64,000 nucleotides of DNA, from the NCBI RefSeq assembly GCF_946886105.1, contig NZ_CAMPHV010000011.1:1-64000 (forward strand), written 5' to 3'. Below the pieces are notes generated by a model. That model was not told where the DNA came from, searched no databases, and worked only from the letters and a program-made list of their open reading frames with translations. The DNA is from an uncultured Pseudomonas sp. GTDB taxonomy: Bacteria; Pseudomonadota; Gammaproteobacteria; Pseudomonadales; Pseudomonadaceae. Positions 52,384 through 59,957 of the stretch are shown here, piece by piece. A program made the translations under genes and the position numbers. Positions within the stretch are counted from its first letter, which is position 1. The number at the start of each line of letters is the position of its first letter.

Positions 52384-53157
52384 ATGTCGACAGCGCTGGT
52401 CCTCAGAACTTTCCTCTTCTATCTGTTGTTGTCTTCCAGCGCCTTCTTCTGGTGCACCCTCAGCGTCTTCGTCGCCCCCTTCCTACCGTTCCGCGCCCGC
52501 TACCGTTTCGTCGTGCAGAACTGGTGCCGCTGCGCCACCTGGCTGGCCAAGGTGGTGATCGGCATCCGCTACGAGATCAAGGGTCTGGAAAACATCCCCG
52601 AGCGCCCTTGCGTGATTCTGGCCAAGCATCAGAGCACCTGGGAGACCTTCTTTCTCTGCGGTTTCTTCGAGCCGCTGAGTCAGGTGGTCAAGCGCGAGCT
52701 GCTCTATGTGCCGTTCTTTGGCTGGGCGATGGCCATGCTCAAGCCCATCGCGATCGATCGCAGCAACCCCAAAGCGGCGCTCAAGCAGGTCGCGCAAATG
52801 GGCCATAAGCGCCTCGAGCAGGGCGCCTGGGTACTGGTGTTCCCGGAAGGCACGCGGATTCCCACGGGGCAGATCGGCAAATTCTCACGCGGCGGCGCGT
52901 CGCTGGCGGTGAATGCCGGCCTGCCGGTCTTGCCGATCGCGCACAACGCCGGCGAGTTCTGGCCGAAGGAAGGCTGGGGCAAGACCCCCGGCACCATCCA
53001 GGTGGTGATCGGTCCGGCGATGCACGCTAACGGCACCGGCCCACGAGCGATTGCCGAATTGAACGACCGCGCCTTCGCCTGGGTCAGTCAGGCACAACGC
53101 GATATCGGCGCCCTGAGCCCCGAAGCGGTGCCCTGCGAAGCCGGCGAAACGGCTTGA
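52384..53157 (+). CDS. 1-acyl-glycerol-3-phosphate acyltransferase (PlsC family)
   Basis: 257-residue membrane acyltransferase that makes phosphatidic acid. There is an N-terminal hydrophobic segment (LFYLLLSSSAFFWCTLSVFV), the HX4D-like block AKHQSTWET (Glu in place of Asp, usual in this subgroup), FFGWAMAMLKPIAIDR, and VFPEGTRIPTGQIGKFSRGG (about 157-176). It is equivalent to the gyrB-linked acyltransferase of P. aeruginosa (PA0005). A second, smaller PlsC protein is encoded at 57586. Confidence 0.93.
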   Translation: MSTALVLRTFLFYLLLSSSAFFWCTLSVFVAPFLPFRARYRFVVQNWCRCATWLAKVVIGIRYEIKGLENIPERPCVILAKHQSTWETFFLCGFFEPLSQVVKRELLYVPFFGWAMAMLKPIAIDRSNPKAALKQVAQMGHKRLEQGAWVLVFPEGTRIPTGQIGKFSRGGASLAVNAGLPVLPIAHNAGEFWPKEGWGKTPGTIQVVIGPAMHANGTGPRAIAELNDRAFAWVSQAQRDIGALSPEAVPCEAGETA

Positions 53158-53163
53158 GGCAAT

Positions 53164-53172
53164 TGTGGATAA
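53164..53172 (-). promoter_or_regulatory. Consensus DnaA box
   Basis: TGTGGATAA on the plus strand is a perfect TTATCCACA 9-mer on the minus strand. It is a lone box between the acyltransferase stop and the ynb-like cassette, near but outside the expected oriC. It may be chance or a DnaA-responsive or titration site. Confidence 0.5.
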
Positions 53173-53227
53173 GCTGTGCATAGAATGAAATCAAAGTGCC
53201 ATTATTCGACATAAGGGACTGAAAAGA

Positions 53228-53266
53228 CCCGGTTTTAAACTCAGGCAAGGAAAGCCTGAAACCGGG
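53228..53266 (+). promoter_or_regulatory. Structured leader upstream of the ynb-like cassette
   Basis: CCCGGTT (53228-53234) pairs with AACCGGG (53260-53266), enclosing a second stem CAGGC/GCCTG (53242-53246 with 53254-53258) around an AAGGAAA loop. The bulged hairpin lies about 115 bases before the first cassette gene. It could be a leader structure or a factor-dependent terminator of the upstream transcript. No T-run. Confidence 0.4.
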
Positions 53267-53381
53267 GGATAAGTTTCGCCGCAACGCGACAATCTCGCCC
53301 ACGCGGTCTTGGCGAGCTGCCGGGCCGACAAACGGCTAAGCTGGTTCGAAACGTCACAGCAGCAAAAAGGAATTTTGCCTC

Positions 53382-53987
53382 ATGCTCTCCATCTACCAAC
53401 TCAAGCCGGCTTTCCAGAACCTGCTGCGGCCGGGGGTCAAGCGCCTGTACGAGCGGGGCGTCACCGCCAATCAGGTGACCCTGGCCGCGGCCGTGGTTTC
53501 CGTTGGCCTCGGCGTCCTTCTCGCGGCCATGCATCAGCATATCTGGCTGTTCGCCCTGGTCCCGCTGTGGATGCTGGTACGCATGGCGCTTAACGCCGTG
53601 GACGGCATGCTGGCTCGCGAGTTCGGTCAGCAATCCAAGCTCGGCGCTTACCTCAACGAACTCTGCGACCTGATCGCCGACAGCGCCCTGTACCTGCCCT
53701 TTGCGCTATTGCCCGGCGTCTCGCCGTTGCTGGTGGTACTGGTGGTGGTGCTGGCCCTGATCAGCGAATACGCCGGCGTAATCGGGCCAATGGTAGGCGC
53801 CTCGCGGCGCTACGACGGGCCCATGGGTAAGAGCGACCGGGCCTTGTGTTTCGGCGTGCTCGGCGCCGGCGTGGCCAGCGGCCTGTTGCCGCCGATGTGG
53901 ATCGACGTTCTGCTCGCCCTGATTCTCGCTCTACTGCTCTACACCCTCTACAACCGCGTGCGCCAAGGCCTGGCCGAAGCGGCATAA
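53382..53987 (+). CDS. ynbA: CDP-alcohol phosphatidyltransferase, YnbA-like
   Basis: 201-residue integral membrane enzyme with about six TM segments. The CDP-alcohol motif is DGMLAREFGQQSKLGAYLNE (from about residue 73) followed by LCD. The pattern DGx2ARx8Gx3Dx3D is kept except that the third Asp is Asn. E. coli YnbA, as I recall it, shares that Asn, so it marks the subfamily. The enzyme should replace CMP of CDP-diacylglycerol with an alcohol or alcohol phosphate; the acceptor is unknown. ATG 53382 follows AAGGA. It is the first gene of a cassette of six. Confidence 0.87.
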   Translation: MLSIYQLKPAFQNLLRPGVKRLYERGVTANQVTLAAAVVSVGLGVLLAAMHQHIWLFALVPLWMLVRMALNAVDGMLAREFGQQSKLGAYLNELCDLIADSALYLPFALLPGVSPLLVVLVVVLALISEYAGVIGPMVGASRRYDGPMGKSDRALCFGVLGAGVASGLLPPMWIDVLLALILALLLYTLYNRVRQGLAEAA

Positions 53988-54015
53988 CCGACTGACTCGA
54001 AATAAGGATATCTCG

Positions 54016-55773
54016 ATGCGCGAAGCCCAAGACCTGCGTTTCACCACCCATGACGGCGTGGAATTGTTCTACCGTCACTGGCCGGCCATCGCCGCCGAGG
54101 AGGGCGCGCCACGGCGTGCCCTGGTGATGTTCCACCGCGGCCACGAACACGGCGGGCGCATGGCCCATCTGGTCGACGAGCTGGATATGCCCGGCTTCGA
54201 CTTCTTCGCCTGGGACGCTCGCGGCCATGGCCTGTCCCCGGGCGAACGCGGCGACAGCCCGAGCTTCGCCACCAGCGCGCGGGACGTGCAGACCTTTATC
54301 GACCATATCCGCGTCGAACATGGGCTGGCCGAGGAAGACCTCGCCGTGCTGGCGCAGAGCGTCGGTGCCGTGGTCGTGGCGACCTGGGCCCATGACTACG
54401 CGCCGAAGATCCGCGCCCTGGTGCTCGCCTCGCCGGCGTTCAAGGTCAAACTCTATGTGCCCTTCGCCCGCAGCGGCCTCAAGCTGATGCGCGCCTGGCG
54501 CGGCAACTTCTTCGTCAACAGCTATGTGAAGGCCAAGTTCCTCAGCCACGACCCGGCACGTATCGCCTCGTTCGACAACGACCCGCTGATCACCCGGGCG
54601 ATTTCGGTGAACATGTTGCTCGGTCTGTACGAGGCGGCCGAGCGGGTGGTGGCCAATGCCCAGGCGATCCAAATCCCCACGCAGTTGCTGATCTCCGGCG
54701 CCGACTTCGTGGTGCACCGCAAACCTCAGGAGCAGTTCTTCGAACGCCTCGGCAGCCTGCGCAAGGAGCAACACATCCTGCCCGGCTTCTTCCACGACAC
54801 CCTCGGCGAGCGCGACCGCAGCCACGCCTTGAGCCGCGCCCGGCGCTTTCTCCTGCGCTGTTTCGAGGAACCGGTGCAACGCCCCTCGCTACTCGATGCC
54901 GACCGCCTCGGCGCGACCTGCGCCGAAGCCGAAAGCCTGGCCGCACCGCTGCCGCCGAACTCGCTGCGCGACCTTTACTGGCGCGCCACCCGCGCCGGCC
55001 TGAAGTTCGGCAGCACGCTGTCCGACGGGGTCAAGCTGGGCTTCGACACCGGCTTCGATTCCGGCAGCACTCTCGATTACGTTTACCGCAACCGTCCCAG
55101 CGGCAAGTCGGCTATCGGCAAGCTGATCGACCAGAACTACCTGAACTCCATCGGCTGGCGCGGCATTCGCCAACGCAAGGTGCACGCCGAAGAACTGCTG
55201 CGCCTGGCCATGGCCAAACTGCGCGTGCAGGGCGAGGCCGTACGCATCGTCGATATCGCCGCCGGCCATGGCCGCTATATCCTCGAAGCCCTGGAAGGCA
55301 TGGAACAACAACCGGACTCGATCCTGCTGCGCGACTACAGCGATATCAACGTGCGCGACGGCGCCGCGCTGATCGAGCAAAAGGGCTTGGGCGAGATCGC
55401 CCGTTTCGTCAAAGGCGACGCTTTCGACCGCGACGACCTGGCCGCCCTCGACCCCAAACCGACCCTGGCGGTGGTCTCCGGTTTGTATGAGCTGTTCGGC
55501 AGTAACCGGATGGTCGGCGACTCCCTGGCCGGCCTGGCGGCGGCGGTGGAAGAGGGTGGTTACCTGGTCTACACCGGCCAACCCTGGCACCCGCAGCTTG
55601 AACTGATCGCCCGCGCGCTGACCAGCCACCGCGGCGGCGAAGCCTGGGTCATGCGCCGGCGCAGCCAGACGGAGATGGATCAGCTGGTCGAGGCCGCGGG
55701 CTTTCGCAAGCTGACCCAGCGCATCGACGAATGGGGCATCTTCAGCGTCTCCCTGGCGCAGCGGGTGTCCTGA
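54016..55773 (+). CDS. ynbC: Alpha/beta hydrolase - methyltransferase fusion, YnbC-like
   Basis: 585-residue two-domain protein, the same length as E. coli YnbC from memory. Residues 1-290 are an alpha/beta hydrolase (lysophospholipase-like): LVMFHRGHEHGGRM near the oxyanion loop, FFAWDARGHGLSPG, nucleophile elbow LAQSVGA, and a late His in FFHDTLGERDRS. Residues about 340-585 form a SAM methyltransferase: motif I VRIVDIAAGHGRYILEAL and YLVYTGQPWHPQ. There are no membrane segments. It probably acts on the lipid made by the cassette or on its head group. AAGGA precedes ATG 54016; the stop overlaps the next ATG by one base. Confidence 0.87.
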   Translation: MREAQDLRFTTHDGVELFYRHWPAIAAEEGAPRRALVMFHRGHEHGGRMAHLVDELDMPGFDFFAWDARGHGLSPGERGDSPSFATSARDVQTFIDHIRVEHGLAEEDLAVLAQSVGAVVVATWAHDYAPKIRALVLASPAFKVKLYVPFARSGLKLMRAWRGNFFVNSYVKAKFLSHDPARIASFDNDPLITRAISVNMLLGLYEAAERVVANAQAIQIPTQLLISGADFVVHRKPQEQFFERLGSLRKEQHILPGFFHDTLGERDRSHALSRARRFLLRCFEEPVQRPSLLDADRLGATCAEAESLAAPLPPNSLRDLYWRATRAGLKFGSTLSDGVKLGFDTGFDSGSTLDYVYRNRPSGKSAIGKLIDQNYLNSIGWRGIRQRKVHAEELLRLAMAKLRVQGEAVRIVDIAAGHGRYILEALEGMEQQPDSILLRDYSDINVRDGAALIEQKGLGEIARFVKGDAFDRDDLAALDPKPTLAVVSGLYELFGSNRMVGDSLAGLAAAVEEGGYLVYTGQPWHPQLELIARALTSHRGGEAWVMRRRSQTEMDQLVEAAGFRKLTQRIDEWGIFSVSLAQRVS

Positions 55774-57131
55774 TGACAGAGGCTGCGGATAGCCGCGAAG
55801 CGGGGCTGTGGAAGCGCGGCGTGCTCTGGCTGCTGCTATTGGCGCCGCTGTTCTTCGCCAGCTATAGCTTTGCCAATTGGTTGAGCAGCCAACGCGATGA
55901 CGTCGGCACCCTGGTGTTCGCCTGGGAAAGCCGGATGCCGCTATGGCCGTGGACGATAGTGCCTTACTGGTCGATCGACCTGCTGTATGGCTTGTCCTTT
56001 CTGCTGCCGGCGACACGCCGGGAAATGGATCGCCACGGCCTGCGCCTGCTCAGCGTGCAGCTGCTGTGCATCGCCGCGTTCCTGCTTTGGCCGCTGCGCT
56101 TCACCTTCGAGCGGCCGGAACTGGATGGCCTGTTCGGCACCATGTTCGATGTGCTGATGGGCTTCGACAAACCCTTCAACCAGGCGCCATCCCTGCATAT
56201 CGCCCTGCTGGTGGTCATCTGGATGATGTTCGCCCGACATACCCATGGTCTATGGCTGCGCGGCCTGCTGCACGGCTGGATGGCGCTGATCGGCGTGTCG
56301 GTGCTGACCACCTGGCAACATCATTTCATCGATGTGCCCACCGGAGTTCTGGCCGGTTGGTTGTGCGTCTGGCTATGGCCGCAGCAAGGCCCCAGCCCGC
56401 TGCTGCATTGGCAGCTGGCGCGCGACCCGCAACGCTGGCGACTGGCCTTGCGCTACAGCCTCGGCGTAGCGCTGATGGCAGCTGTGGCGGTGAATCTGGG
56501 CGGCGTCTGGTTATGGTTGCTGTGGCCCGGTTTCTCGCTGCTGCTGGTGGCCCTCAACTACGCACTGTTCGATGCCCAAGGCTTCCAGAAGGATGCCGAC
56601 GGCCGCCTGAGCAGCGCCGCCTGCTGGTTGCTCGCGCCTTACCTGGCCGCCGCCTGGCTCAACTCGCGGTTATGGACCCGCGCCCATCCGCACGCCGATG
56701 AAGTCGGCGAGGGCGTCTGGCTCGGGCGCATTCCCGCAGCCGGGCAGGCCGAAGGATTTCACGCCCAGTTGGATCTCTGCGCCGAGCTGCCGAGACGAAC
56801 CGCCACCAAGGTCTATCGCTCGCTGCCGGTGCTCGACCTCAGCGTACCCAGCCCGCAGACGCTGCTGGCCGCCGCCCAGGCGATCGAAGCGCTGAGACAA
56901 GAAGGTCCGTTGTTGGTCTGTTGCGCGCTCGGTTATTCGCGCAGCGCCGCCGCGGTGGCCGCTTGGCTGTTGCACAGCGGTCGCTGCCAGAACCTGCCGG
57001 AAGCGCTCGCGCAGTTGCGCCGGGCACGCCCGCAGGTGGTGCTGAGCGAGGCCCACCAGCAGGCGTTGCGGGAGATGTTGCAACTGCACAGCATCGCGCC
57101 TGCGAGCCTGGCAGCAGCCCATGGCTACTGA
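55773..57131 (+). CDS. ynbD: PAP2 / dual-specificity phosphatase fusion, YnbD-like
   Basis: 452-residue inner-membrane protein. The first 320 residues have about eight TM segments and a PAP2-type phosphatase core: PSLHIALLVVI (motif 2) and TTWQHHFIDVPTGVLAGW (motif 3, His and Asp). The C-terminal 130 residues form a cysteine phosphatase with the Cx5R loop CALGYSRSAA (about 390). Two unrelated phosphatase folds in one chain suggest removal of a phosphate from a lipid head group, analogous to PGP phosphatase. ATG 55773 overlaps the ynbC stop (TGATG). Confidence 0.87.
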   Translation: MTEAADSREAGLWKRGVLWLLLLAPLFFASYSFANWLSSQRDDVGTLVFAWESRMPLWPWTIVPYWSIDLLYGLSFLLPATRREMDRHGLRLLSVQLLCIAAFLLWPLRFTFERPELDGLFGTMFDVLMGFDKPFNQAPSLHIALLVVIWMMFARHTHGLWLRGLLHGWMALIGVSVLTTWQHHFIDVPTGVLAGWLCVWLWPQQGPSPLLHWQLARDPQRWRLALRYSLGVALMAAVAVNLGGVWLWLLWPGFSLLLVALNYALFDAQGFQKDADGRLSSAACWLLAPYLAAAWLNSRLWTRAHPHADEVGEGVWLGRIPAAGQAEGFHAQLDLCAELPRRTATKVYRSLPVLDLSVPSPQTLLAAAQAIEALRQEGPLLVCCALGYSRSAAAVAAWLLHSGRCQNLPEALAQLRRARPQVVLSEAHQQALREMLQLHSIAPASLAAAHGY

Positions 57132-57576
57132 AATGCAGCTGTTCACCGTGGCCAGCCTGCTGCGCCGGGGCAGGGCCATGGATAGGTTATCCAATGCCCT
57201 CACCCTGTTCGGCCTGGCGATCGGTCTGGCGCCTTTGCTCGGCGCCCCGGCGCAGCCTCTCGGTGCCGTGTTCAGCGCCTTACTGGTGCTGCTGGGGCTG
57301 ATCGAAAAATACTGGGCGTTACGCGTCGCCCTGGATGCCGACTTGTTCCAGCACCTGGCGGGCGATGCCGAGCGCCTGGCGGCACGGACCATCGAGTTCG
57401 ATCAGGCGCTGATAGGGCTCAGCTTGCAACCGGCGGACAAGGCCGCGCGCAGCTGGGACGAACGCAGCCGCGGCGCACTGCGCTTGTTGCGCCTGCAGGC
57501 ACTCGCGCTGCTCGCGCAGGTGCTGCTGGCCGTGTCCCTTCTGCTTGGTTTGCCCTGGCTTTCAATCACTGGATAA
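57121..57576 (+). CDS. Small membrane protein of the ynb-like cassette
   Basis: 151-residue protein of unknown function with three hydrophobic stretches (about 24-42, 46-62 and 126-148) and a charged middle (ADLFQHLAGDAERLAARTIEF). ATG 57121 overlaps the end of ynbD by 11 bases. ATG 57133, two bases past that stop, is an alternative. It has no counterpart in the four-gene E. coli operon that I can recall. It may be an accessory subunit. Confidence 0.7.
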   Translation: MATEMQLFTVASLLRRGRAMDRLSNALTLFGLAIGLAPLLGAPAQPLGAVFSALLVLLGLIEKYWALRVALDADLFQHLAGDAERLAARTIEFDQALIGLSLQPADKAARSWDERSRGALRLLRLQALALLAQVLLAVSLLLGLPWLSITG

Positions 57577-57585
57577 GGAATCGTC

Positions 57586-58206
57586 ATGCTCGCTTCCCTG
57601 ACCGCCTTTGCGATTACCTCCGCCGCGCGCCTGCTGACCGGCGCCCGTGCGCTCTGGCTCGGCTGCACCGCGCAACCGGTGCAACGCCTGTACTATGCCA
57701 ATCACAGCAGCCACGGCGACTTCGTGCTGCTCTGGGCCTCGCTACCGCCGGAATTGCGGCGCAGCACCCGCCCGGTGGCCGGCGCCGATTATTGGCAGCG
57801 TGACGGCCTGCGTCGCTACCTGATCCACGAAGTATTCAACGGCGTGTTGATCGACCGCGAACGGGTTTCGACCCACGACAATCCCCTGCAACCCATGCTC
57901 GATGCCTTGGACAACGGCGATTCGCTGATCCTGTTTCCCGAAGGCACGCGCAACCTGGAGGAGGGTTTGTTGCCGTTCAAAAGCGGGCTCTACCATCTGG
58001 CTCAAGCGCGGCCGCAGGTCGAGCTGATCCCCGTCTGGATCGCCAATCTCAACCGCGTGATGCCCAAGGGCAGGGCGCTGCCACTGCCGTTGCTGTGCAC
58101 CCTGAGCTTCGGCGCACCGCTGCAACCGCAGGAAGGGGAAAGCAAGCAGGCGTTCCTCGAACGCGCCCGCAACGCATTACTGGCCATGGCACCCGAGGAG
58201 GCTTGA
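57586..58206 (+). CDS. Lysophospholipid acyltransferase, second PlsC homologue
   Basis: 206-residue acyltransferase with the catalytic NHSSHGD (Hx4D, about residues 39-45) and the substrate motif LFPEGTRNLEEGLLPFKSGL (about 125-144). The N-terminal hydrophobic helix is short. It likely makes phosphatidate or reacylates a lyso-product for the CDP-diglyceride synthase encoded next. ATG 57586 follows AAGGA, nine bases after the preceding stop. It is dedicated to the cassette, since a housekeeping PlsC lies at 52384. Confidence 0.88.
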   Translation: MLASLTAFAITSAARLLTGARALWLGCTAQPVQRLYYANHSSHGDFVLLWASLPPELRRSTRPVAGADYWQRDGLRRYLIHEVFNGVLIDRERVSTHDNPLQPMLDALDNGDSLILFPEGTRNLEEGLLPFKSGLYHLAQARPQVELIPVWIANLNRVMPKGRALPLPLLCTLSFGAPLQPQEGESKQAFLERARNALLAMAPEEA

Positions 58207-58207
58207 G

Positions 58208-59149
58208 ATGGATAACAACACCCTGATGCTGTTCGCCGGTATCGGTGCCCTGCTGTTGCTCGCTTCGGCCATCGGCTATTTCCTCAAGTTGCGCAGCGGC
58301 GACACGCCCAACCCGGTGATCGACAACCTCAACGCGCGGATCAACGCCTGGTGGGTGATGGTCGCCGTGATAGGCGCGGCCTTTCTGTTCGGCGATATCG
58401 GCGTGGTTTTGCTGTTCTACTTCGTCTCGTTCTACGCCCTGCGCGAATTCATGACCCTGACGCCGACCCGGCGTAGCGATTACCCGGCGCTGGTAGCGGC
58501 CTTCTATTTCGCCTTGCCGATGCAATACCTGCTGATCGCCGTCGACTGGTACGGCTTGTTCTCGATCTTTATCCCGGTTTACCTGTTTCTCTTGCTGCCG
58601 ATCCTCGCGTCCCTGGGCGGCGACACCACACGCTTCCTCGAACGCGCTTCCAAGGTGCAATGGGGGCTGATGATCGCCGTGTACTGCATCTCCGCGGTAC
58701 CGGCGCTGCTGACCCTGGACATCCCCGGCTATGAAGGGCGCAACCTGCTGCTGATCGCCTGGCTGATCATCGTCGTGCAGCTCTCCGACGTACTCCAGTA
58801 CGTCTGCGGCAAGCTGTTCGGCAAACACAAGATCGCACCACGCCTGTCGCCCTCGAAGACCCTCGAAGGCTTTGTCGGCGGGGTTTCCCTGGCCTGCCTG
58901 GCCGGCGCGCTGCTGTACTGGATCACCCCGTTCAACTTCTGGCAGGCCGCCCTGATGGCCCTGACCGTCAACCTCCTGGGCTTCGCCGGCGGCCTGGTGA
59001 TGTCGGCGATCAAGCGCGACCGCGGGGTGAAGGACTGGGGCCATATGATCGAAGGCCACGGCGGCATGCTCGACCGCCTGGACTCGGTGTGCTTCGCCGC
59101 CCCGATCTTCTTCCACTTCGTGCGCTACTGGTGGGTGCCGTTGGCGTAG
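58208..59149 (+). CDS. ynbB: Phosphatidate cytidylyltransferase (CdsA-like), YnbB-like
   Basis: 313-residue integral membrane enzyme with about eight TM segments. It converts phosphatidate and CTP to CDP-diacylglycerol. The CdsA signature is intact: SAIKRDRGVKDWG, then EGHGGMLDRLDSVCFAAP near the C-terminus, and RLSPSKTLEGFVGG in the middle. It resembles E. coli YnbB, a CdsA paralogue. ATG 58208 starts one base after the acyltransferase stop, with GAGGAGG inside that gene. It closes the cassette and provides the activated lipid for the YnbA-like enzyme. Confidence 0.9.
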   Translation: MDNNTLMLFAGIGALLLLASAIGYFLKLRSGDTPNPVIDNLNARINAWWVMVAVIGAAFLFGDIGVVLLFYFVSFYALREFMTLTPTRRSDYPALVAAFYFALPMQYLLIAVDWYGLFSIFIPVYLFLLLPILASLGGDTTRFLERASKVQWGLMIAVYCISAVPALLTLDIPGYEGRNLLLIAWLIIVVQLSDVLQYVCGKLFGKHKIAPRLSPSKTLEGFVGGVSLACLAGALLYWITPFNFWQAALMALTVNLLGFAGGLVMSAIKRDRGVKDWGHMIEGHGGMLDRLDSVCFAAPIFFHFVRYWWVPLA

Positions 59150-59376: not shown

Positions 59377-59957
59377 GGGCAACACTCCAATCAATCAAGT
59401 CCATGTTTCGTCGCGCAGCTTTCATATCGCGCAACGCCTGCTGAGGACAGGCCCGCCACAATCGGCAGCTTGAGTCATAACTAAGATGACCGACGAGATC
59501 CTGGGGTTGCTGTTTGGTATGAACGAACTCGATAGTGCCCCAACGACCGCATGAAATCGTGCTGCTGCGACCAGACGACATCAGAGTGATCCAATTGATC
59601 GGGATCTGTGAGATAACCCCGGCAGCTCAATGCGGTCTCAAGGCTGATGTAATTGAATTGAGCGGCACGCAGCCTCGCCGCAGCATGAAACAGCAAGAGC
59701 CCATTTGAAGGGCTGGCCGGCTCGAACAGATACAGGCCCCTGCACACGCGTACCAGATGCCCTTCCGACGCCGCACGGCTCAACAGGGTTTTGTAGGCAC
59801 CGTCAGAGATATCCGGCACAAGGGCCCTGAGGTCGTCTGGAGTGAAGAGATAGCGCTCTTCGCTGGCCAGCCGAGCCAGATTCCGGATCAGACGACGCAT
59901 AGGCTGGGCGGAGTTGGCGTGGGCCTGCATAGCATCTGACTCAACGGAAGACTTCAC
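59363..59957 (-). pseudogene. Frameshifted AbiEi-family antitoxin
   Basis: The first frame (59957 to about 59590, GTG or ATG 59930 start) has the winged-helix antitoxin start: LFTPDDLRALVPDISDGAYK, then LSRAASEGHLVRVCRGLYLF and AAQFNYISLETALSCRGYL. After DPDQLDHSDV it runs to a stop at 59481 with unrelated sequence. The expected continuation, ITLMSSGRSSTISC, GTIEFVHTKQQ and ALRDMKAARRNMDLIDW, lies in another frame from about 59593 to 59363. One frameshift (net +1 or -2) near 59590 explains both. GC is lower than in the core genes (32/60 at 59641, my count). Confidence 0.7.

Follow-up and report, generated by a model that had tools for sequence, protein, structure and literature searches.

What is made by a compact set of phospholipid-type genes that some bacteria keep in parallel to their housekeeping lipid enzymes? 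The question is raised by a stretch of 64,000 nucleotides from an uncultured Pseudomonas sp. (contig NZ_CAMPHV010000011.1, positions 1 to 64,000 of the forward strand; hereafter the window), where six open reading frames (ORFs) follow one another on the plus strand at 53382..59149 in the order A-C-D-S-P-B, placed as in the first-pass annotation, which had read them from the letters alone as a phospholipid cassette related to ynbABCD of Escherichia coli. Our answer, to which we would assign a probability of roughly 0.5, is that the cassette encodes a side-branch of phospholipid synthesis, dedicated and horizontally mobile, which leads from phosphatidate (PA) to CDP-diacylglycerol (CDP-DAG), then to phosphatidyl-X-phosphate, phosphatidyl-X and a methylated product, X being the head group. 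The six genes are the following:

53382..53987, plus strand: gene A (YnbA family), with a CDP-alcohol phosphatidyltransferase fold (CDP-OH_P_transf)
54016..55773, plus strand: gene C (YnbC family), a monoacylglycerol-lipase-like hydrolase fused to Methyltransf_20 (PF12146 and PF12147)
55773..57131, plus strand: gene D (YnbD family), a putative PAP2-type membrane domain and a dual-specificity phosphatase (DSP) domain, DSPc
57121..57576, plus strand: gene S, a small membrane protein without a Pfam or NCBIfam family
57586..58206, plus strand: gene P, a PlsC-type acyltransferase (PF01553, 63.1 bits) with HX4D and EGTR motifs
58208..59149, plus strand: gene B (YnbB family), a CdsA-type phosphatidate cytidylyltransferase (PF01148, 243.8 bits)

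The domain content given by the first-pass annotation is recovered by Pfam, with the PAP2 part of D below threshold and the small protein without a family, and the tight packing that it described, with overlaps or gaps under 30 bases, is found at every junction: a gap of 28 between A and C, an overlap of 1 between C and D (TGATG), an overlap of 11 between D and S, and gaps of 9 and 1 at S-P and P-B, figures that hold if D begins with the ATG at 55773, an upstream ATG at 55731 being the alternative. The kinship with E. coli ynbABCD likewise holds, the orthologues of A, B, C and D showing 47, 38, 58 and 42% identity; the gene order there, however, is A-B-C-D, and neither S nor P is annotated or found by profile.

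The most telling feature of the cassette is the signature of A. The protein belongs to PF01066 by sequence and by fold, and the signature of these CDP-alcohol phosphotransferases, D1xxD2G1xxAR...G2xxxD3xxxD4, comprises eight residues that the literature calls absolutely conserved. In A it reads NxxDGxxAR-x8-GxxxNxxxD, so that two of the eight differ: the metal-binding aspartates D1 and D3 are asparagines (N71 and N92), as they are in 104 of 104 aligned copies and in E. coli YnbA. Among the 240 listed relatives of A the pair is Asn/Asn in 237, Tyr/Asn in one and unreadable in two, and in a control on eight cassette genomes, where 30 of the 31 PF01066 matches came with loci, the 7 YnbA proteins carried Asn/Asn and 20 others Asp/Asp, with 3 unreadable. 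Of the other signature residues, D2, G, A, G2 and D4 are present in 104/104, R79 in 102/104, and also in 104/104 are N30 and T33 of the cytidine motif, described as (D/N)xx(T/S) at the first transmembrane segment, the Pro before the motif being Ala in the window protein. We would suggest, tentatively and with considerable doubt, that the YnbA family might form a class of its own among the CDP-alcohol phosphotransferases, distinct in mechanism and marked by its two asparagines. Together with a dedicated CDP-DAG synthase and methyltransferase, its members would produce a methylated phospholipid not described so far, in E. coli, in Pseudomonas and its relatives, and in rhizobia, fusobacteria and some cyanobacteria, plasmids accounting for part of the spread. 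If this were true, a model organism such as E. coli would hold an overlooked class of lipid, and the comparison supplies a way in, namely the six-gene version, a core of three parts and a signature in the active site from which a change of mechanism is predicted. Of YnbA itself it is reported that an older annotation as cholinephosphotransferase was later withdrawn from EcoCyc, and a ynbA insertion is listed in a table of a cyclic di-GMP screen.

Which acceptor would such an enzyme use? The nearest relatives of A are the phosphatidylinositol-phosphate (PIP) and archaetidylinositol-phosphate synthases, and R153 and R192 of A fall, when aligned by profile, on R155 and R195 of PIP synthase, which are reported to bind the phosphate of the acceptor. 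That both arginines are invariant (104/104) and aligned with this pocket points to a phosphorylated acceptor. Inositol phosphate and glycerol phosphate are disfavoured as its identity. In comparison with the PIP synthases MtPgsA1, RsPIPS and MkPIPS, A differs by its two asparagines and by the positions of R94 and K135, which it does not conserve: position 97 of A, which corresponds to the R94 of MtPIPS reported to be conserved in users of inositol phosphate, is V, I, L, A or M and never Arg in 104/104, and the K135 position, whose alignment is less certain than that of R94, is never Lys in 104. Against the curated PIP synthase models A falls below the cut-off (56 versus 170 for the equivalog NF045883, 72 versus 180 for NF040950). 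None of 40 genomes with gene C, whose completeness is unstated, gave a match to inositol-phosphate synthase (PF07994), controls being positive in 5 of 14. By manual count A was seen beside C in 35 of these genomes and not seen beside it in 3 (G307, G844, G757), the 2 others (G663, G639) being unviewed; the count leaves external uptake of inositol possible. The missing synthase and the non-Arg residue at position 97 make an inositol head group unlikely, and a glycerol head group is made so by the literature on pgpABC, weighed below, and by the low score of A against the pgsA model (19.6 versus 109.1). The pgsA model is also matched, more weakly, by 13 of 23 A proteins at E<=0.001.

The other genes carry the catalytic motifs expected for a CDP-DAG-dependent pathway, A being the exception. 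B resembles the housekeeping CdsA in PF01148 and in the C-terminal signature, all the named residues of S-x2-KR-x4-KD-x6-GHGG-x2-DR-x-D being present in 104/104; it differs in its equivalog score (90.7 versus 385), and for E. coli a review describes YnbB and CdsA as sharing no significant homology in their N-terminal halves. YnbB of E. coli is described in review as having formed CDP-DAG in vitro, it is reported to be unable to replace CdsA in that organism, and a role in the formation of MPIase has been ascribed to it. The first-pass view of ynbABCD as essentially uncharacterised is right only in part, since it does not apply to YnbB; a search of open-licence PubMed Central returned no paper on the six-gene set or on the product of ynbABCD as a whole. 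Because two CdsA-type genes are held by 8/8 genomes checked, one of them adjoining the cassette in 7 (in the remaining genome, G649, both lie on contigs other than that of the cassette), the cassette is a set parallel to the housekeeping genes.

In P the residues H40, D45, E119, G120 and R122 are present in 99/99 and T121 in 98/99, while the hydrolase half of C, which matches solved monoacylglycerol lipases, holds Ser115 (118/119), Asp230 (119/119) and His260 (118/119). D passes the DSPc cut-off (42.3 versus 33.5 bits) with CX5R and the general acid present, and remains below that of PAP2 (22.0 versus 27.2 bits), a family that 24 of its 28 relatives match at E<=0.01; H142/H183/D187 and D355/C384/R390 are invariant in 28 sequences, and in 105/105 when the start is taken 14 residues earlier. 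Its structure model has a pLDDT of 90.6, and the fold comparison (Foldseek, VIA-align rows) covers the DSP part. S has 258 relatives and was called in 80/80 Pseudomonas loci; no family in Pfam or NCBIfam was found for it, with nothing convincing across 34 relatives. One relative of S, P0036, is named "phosphatidylglycerophosphate synthase" in one source, a name that looks carried over because S is without a family match. On ynbC it is reported that a transposon disruptant accumulated polyphosphate in HMS174(DE3) and a Keio deletion did not (PMC2435150), and ynbC is also listed in a persistence table.

From these elements a sequence of steps can be proposed. P would acylate lysophosphatidate to PA, from which B, with CTP, would form CDP-DAG. 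A, similar to PIP synthase and altered in its metal site, would then join the phosphatidyl group to an alcohol that is phosphorylated and other than inositol, and the resulting phosphatidyl-X-phosphate would be dephosphorylated by the DSP domain of D. Methylation of the product would fall to the methyltransferase domain of C; its hydrolase domain and the putative PAP2 domain of D might trim or move acyl chains or head groups, and S could be a membrane accessory protein. The formation of CDP-DAG is the one step with experimental support, obtained by others with E. coli YnbB and described in a review; the remaining steps we infer from protein family and conserved residues, and whether methylation or dephosphorylation comes first is guesswork. 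The general lipid-pathway reading of the first-pass annotation is in this way partly supported and plausible, and to it are added the Asn/Asn signature of A, the smaller core in two further phyla, the plasmid copies and the literature on YnbB.

Do the genes stay together? The first-pass annotation had named a neighbourhood search as a check on its proposal, to be refuted if the genes were found not to travel together, and the proposal passed this check. One genome per species was searched with an alignment of two C sequences; of the 449 relatives obtained the best 80, all from Pseudomonas, were kept, and the genes at each locus were called with profiles made in this analysis. All six genes, in the window order and on one strand, are present in 79/80 of these loci (one, L077, with D in several pieces, and another, L074, with an extra piece of A), the remaining one, L033, being a 6-kb contig that holds A, C, D and S. 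A wider sample, leaning away from the Pseudomonas family, comprised 40 loci from 39 genomes (36 of 63 strong-match genomes, by manual count, and 3 weak), of which L163-L165, having no strong C, were dropped. Of the 37 left, 22 hold all six genes; A is found in 32, B in 30, A together with B in 29, D in 29, P in 26 and S in 26, the counts for S being the softest, its scores here often lying at 26 to 70 bits under a profile trained on its own matches. When the distances between loci are compared from one to another of the five larger proteins, over 23 loci (P contributing fewer pairs), the correlations are 0.86 to 0.98, the highest values under shuffling being 0.41 to 0.75. The six genes thus tend to travel together among bacteria, plasmids included. 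An all-against-all comparison of neighbours, in search of a seventh pathway gene, returned groups common to related genomes. Two groups extended to loci of unrelated genomes, one with 17 loci (4 in the wider sample) and one with 12 (2 in the wider sample); their members resemble, by eye, LysR-type regulators and dihydrolipoamide dehydrogenase, both large superfamilies, so that no seventh gene was found.

The cassette is widespread. By PF12147 matches at E below 1e-80, among those listed, the methyltransferase is found in 33/148 genomes of the family, 10/369 of the class and 27/398 of the phylum of G001 (Pseudomonas tumuqii, the genome of locus L002), and in 11/151 of the order of G278; ynbABCD, at a coverage of at least 80%, is present in 4242/5426 complete E. 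coli genomes. A plasmid version, A-B-P-C, occurs in 3/5426 E. coli genomes (at least 80% of the query), D being cut in all three to 62 to 73 in-frame residues, A marked as frameshifted in one, and S not found in any of the three. Annotation shows all six on three further plasmids: one of type IncF from Citrobacter sp. TSA-1, with Tn3-family transposase and recombinase genes close by, one of 19 kb from Burkholderia ambifaria and one from Shinella, the Citrobacter S being assigned by position with a profile score of 7.3 bits, versus 56.3 and 30.5 for Burkholderia and Shinella; by tblastn, C reaches a coverage of at least 80% in 29/72,556 plasmid records, some of these chromosome-sized. More distant forms are A-B-P-methyltransferase, with neither hydrolase nor D, on a plasmid of the cyanobacterium Pseudanabaena, and C-A-B in Fusobacterium vincentii, on a 2.1-Mb record filed as a plasmid. 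What the proteobacterial, cyanobacterial and fusobacterial sets have in common is A, B and the methyltransferase domain, a core that stands on one locus for each of the two other phyla; database names show further copies of A in Fusobacterium and Pseudanabaena. To this core D, P, S and the hydrolase were added, or else they were lost from sets that had them. Two other plasmids carry YnbC-type genes in different company. In Moraxella osloensis (L260, 6281-14224) C lies in two ORFs with a patatin-like phospholipase, a short-chain dehydrogenase/reductase-type oxidoreductase, a CdsA-type gene and PAP2, among insertion sequence elements, and no YnbA was found in that stretch. In Kosakonia cowanii (L262, 1436-7161) a YnbC-like protein annotated as a methyltransferase is encoded behind genes for a carrier protein, a ketosynthase, MaoC, FabG and a metal-dependent hydrolase, a context that suggests another lipid-type use for the YnbC family.

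Several observations weigh against the proposed side-branch. With D1 and D3 changed, A may not catalyse the usual reaction, and the match of R153 to R155 appears in the profile alignment only, the single-sequence alignment setting it one residue off. Several protein DSPs equal or surpass PTPMT1 as matches to the DSP domain of D. In 5/37 loci of the wider sample C is without a nearby A, and in four of these (L157, L166, L192, L193) B is missing as well, the fifth, L162, being a short contig with B and C; B is also missing from L169, L171 and L174. Because ynbABCD and the Fusobacterium locus are without P, and both cross-phylum loci without D, acylation and dephosphorylation by cassette genes are not needed everywhere, and the absence of P from E. 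coli ynbABCD and of D from the loci of the two other phyla means that the six-step scheme is not general. The literature searched, in the portions available, reports no unknown lipid for these genes. It is because P and D are missing in places, and because the reaction could differ along with the metal site of A, that we go no higher than the probability given at the outset. Separately, L166 and L192 have a strong C and no other cassette gene in the stretch examined, and the genome of L166 carries a second locus, L167, with all six genes.

Other explanations have to be set beside this one. B and A might attach a sugar phosphate, for example N-acetylglucosamine (GlcNAc)-1-phosphate, to a diacylglycerol backbone, giving a glycolipid of the MPIase type that the rest would finish or recycle; a phosphate acting as nucleophile could explain the changed metal/base site of an enzyme whose arginines match a phosphate pocket, and overproduction of YnbB is reported to have raised MPIase, in whose synthesis the authors place it. 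We consider this unlikely, in that the level of MPIase is reported unchanged in a ynbB knockout, that the formation of GlcNAc-PP-DAG (the diphosphate-linked diacylglycerol form) is assigned by the authors to CdsA/YnbB, with ynbA nowhere mentioned in the main text of their paper, and that the methyltransferase and PlsC would be left unexplained. Remodelling or repair of acyl chains, with the hydrolase of C stripping them, P restoring them and A non-catalytic or regulatory, would accord with the likeness of C to monoacylglycerol lipases, with the presence of a PlsC-type enzyme in the same operon and with the loss of D1 and D3; it is distinctly unlikely, considering that the other signature residues of A and its N30, T33 and R79 are kept at the frequencies given above, unlike those of a decayed enzyme, and that A and B persist in a cyanobacterial locus without the hydrolase and a fusobacterial locus without P.

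The cassette might also be a second route to an ordinary phospholipid, either phosphatidylglycerol by way of phosphatidylglycerophosphate (PGP), with D as PGP phosphatase, or phosphatidylinositol by way of PIP, and here the relatives of A named above and its weaker matches to pgsA are in favour, as is the resemblance of the DSP domain to PTPMT1, the mitochondrial PGP phosphatase, from which D differs by its fusion to a PAP2-type membrane domain and by the protein DSPs that score at least as well. Bacterial inositol-lipid gene sets consist of a PIP synthase, a phosphatase and a PAP2-type phosphoinositol dihydroceramide synthase, and the cassette resembles them in its PIP-synthase-like enzyme, phosphatase and putative PAP2 domain, D matching the dihydroceramide synthase weakly (E 0.003), a match found in just 1/28 of its relatives; unlike those sets, the cassette comes with no inositol-phosphate synthase found and with an additional CdsA, PlsC and methyltransferase. 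For phosphatidylinositol the absent PF07994, the residue at the R94 position and the equivalog score all count as contrary; for phosphatidylglycerol the contrary points are the pgsA score and the inviability of the pgpABC triple null, which a review presents and which would leave E. coli no other PGP phosphatase, with the caveat that YnbD may simply lack expression there. An ordinary product is on these grounds quite improbable. Mere adjacency of unrelated lipid genes could be imagined from those loci in which C has few or no cassette companions, yet the complete loci in both samples, the several arrangements of the same gene content and the correlated distances render it extremely improbable.

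The surroundings of the cassette in the window add some minor observations. It sits between an lptA-like gene and gyrB, two unrelated minus-strand ORFs separating it from the latter, and its upstream flank is:

52384..53157, plus strand: lptA-like gene for a PlsC-family acyltransferase (PF01553), outside the cassette

The gene lptA was found in 59/59 genomes of the genus sample, and among the 30 loci viewed its neighbour is the cassette in 7, gyrB in 1, and neither of them within 1.5 kb in 22. Between the cassette and gyrB lie, on the minus strand, an ORF with an AbiEi_4 antitoxin-type match (59481-59957, 32.4 bits) and a metallophosphatase gene (PF00149, 60147-61082). In 114 stretches upstream of A, site patterns for PhoB, AlgU/sigma-E, PhoP, CpxR, Fur, ColR and RpoH gave one match, and a shared regulator site was rejected on that count. 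The 9-mer TGTGGATAA at 53164-53172, which we take to be the complement of the DnaA-box consensus, recurs in 26 of the 114 upstream stretches and may merely reflect the gyrB/origin neighbourhood. An inverted repeat noted by eye between lptA and A (cccggttt ... aaaccggg, about 53227-53268) is a possible candidate for a terminator or regulatory hairpin.

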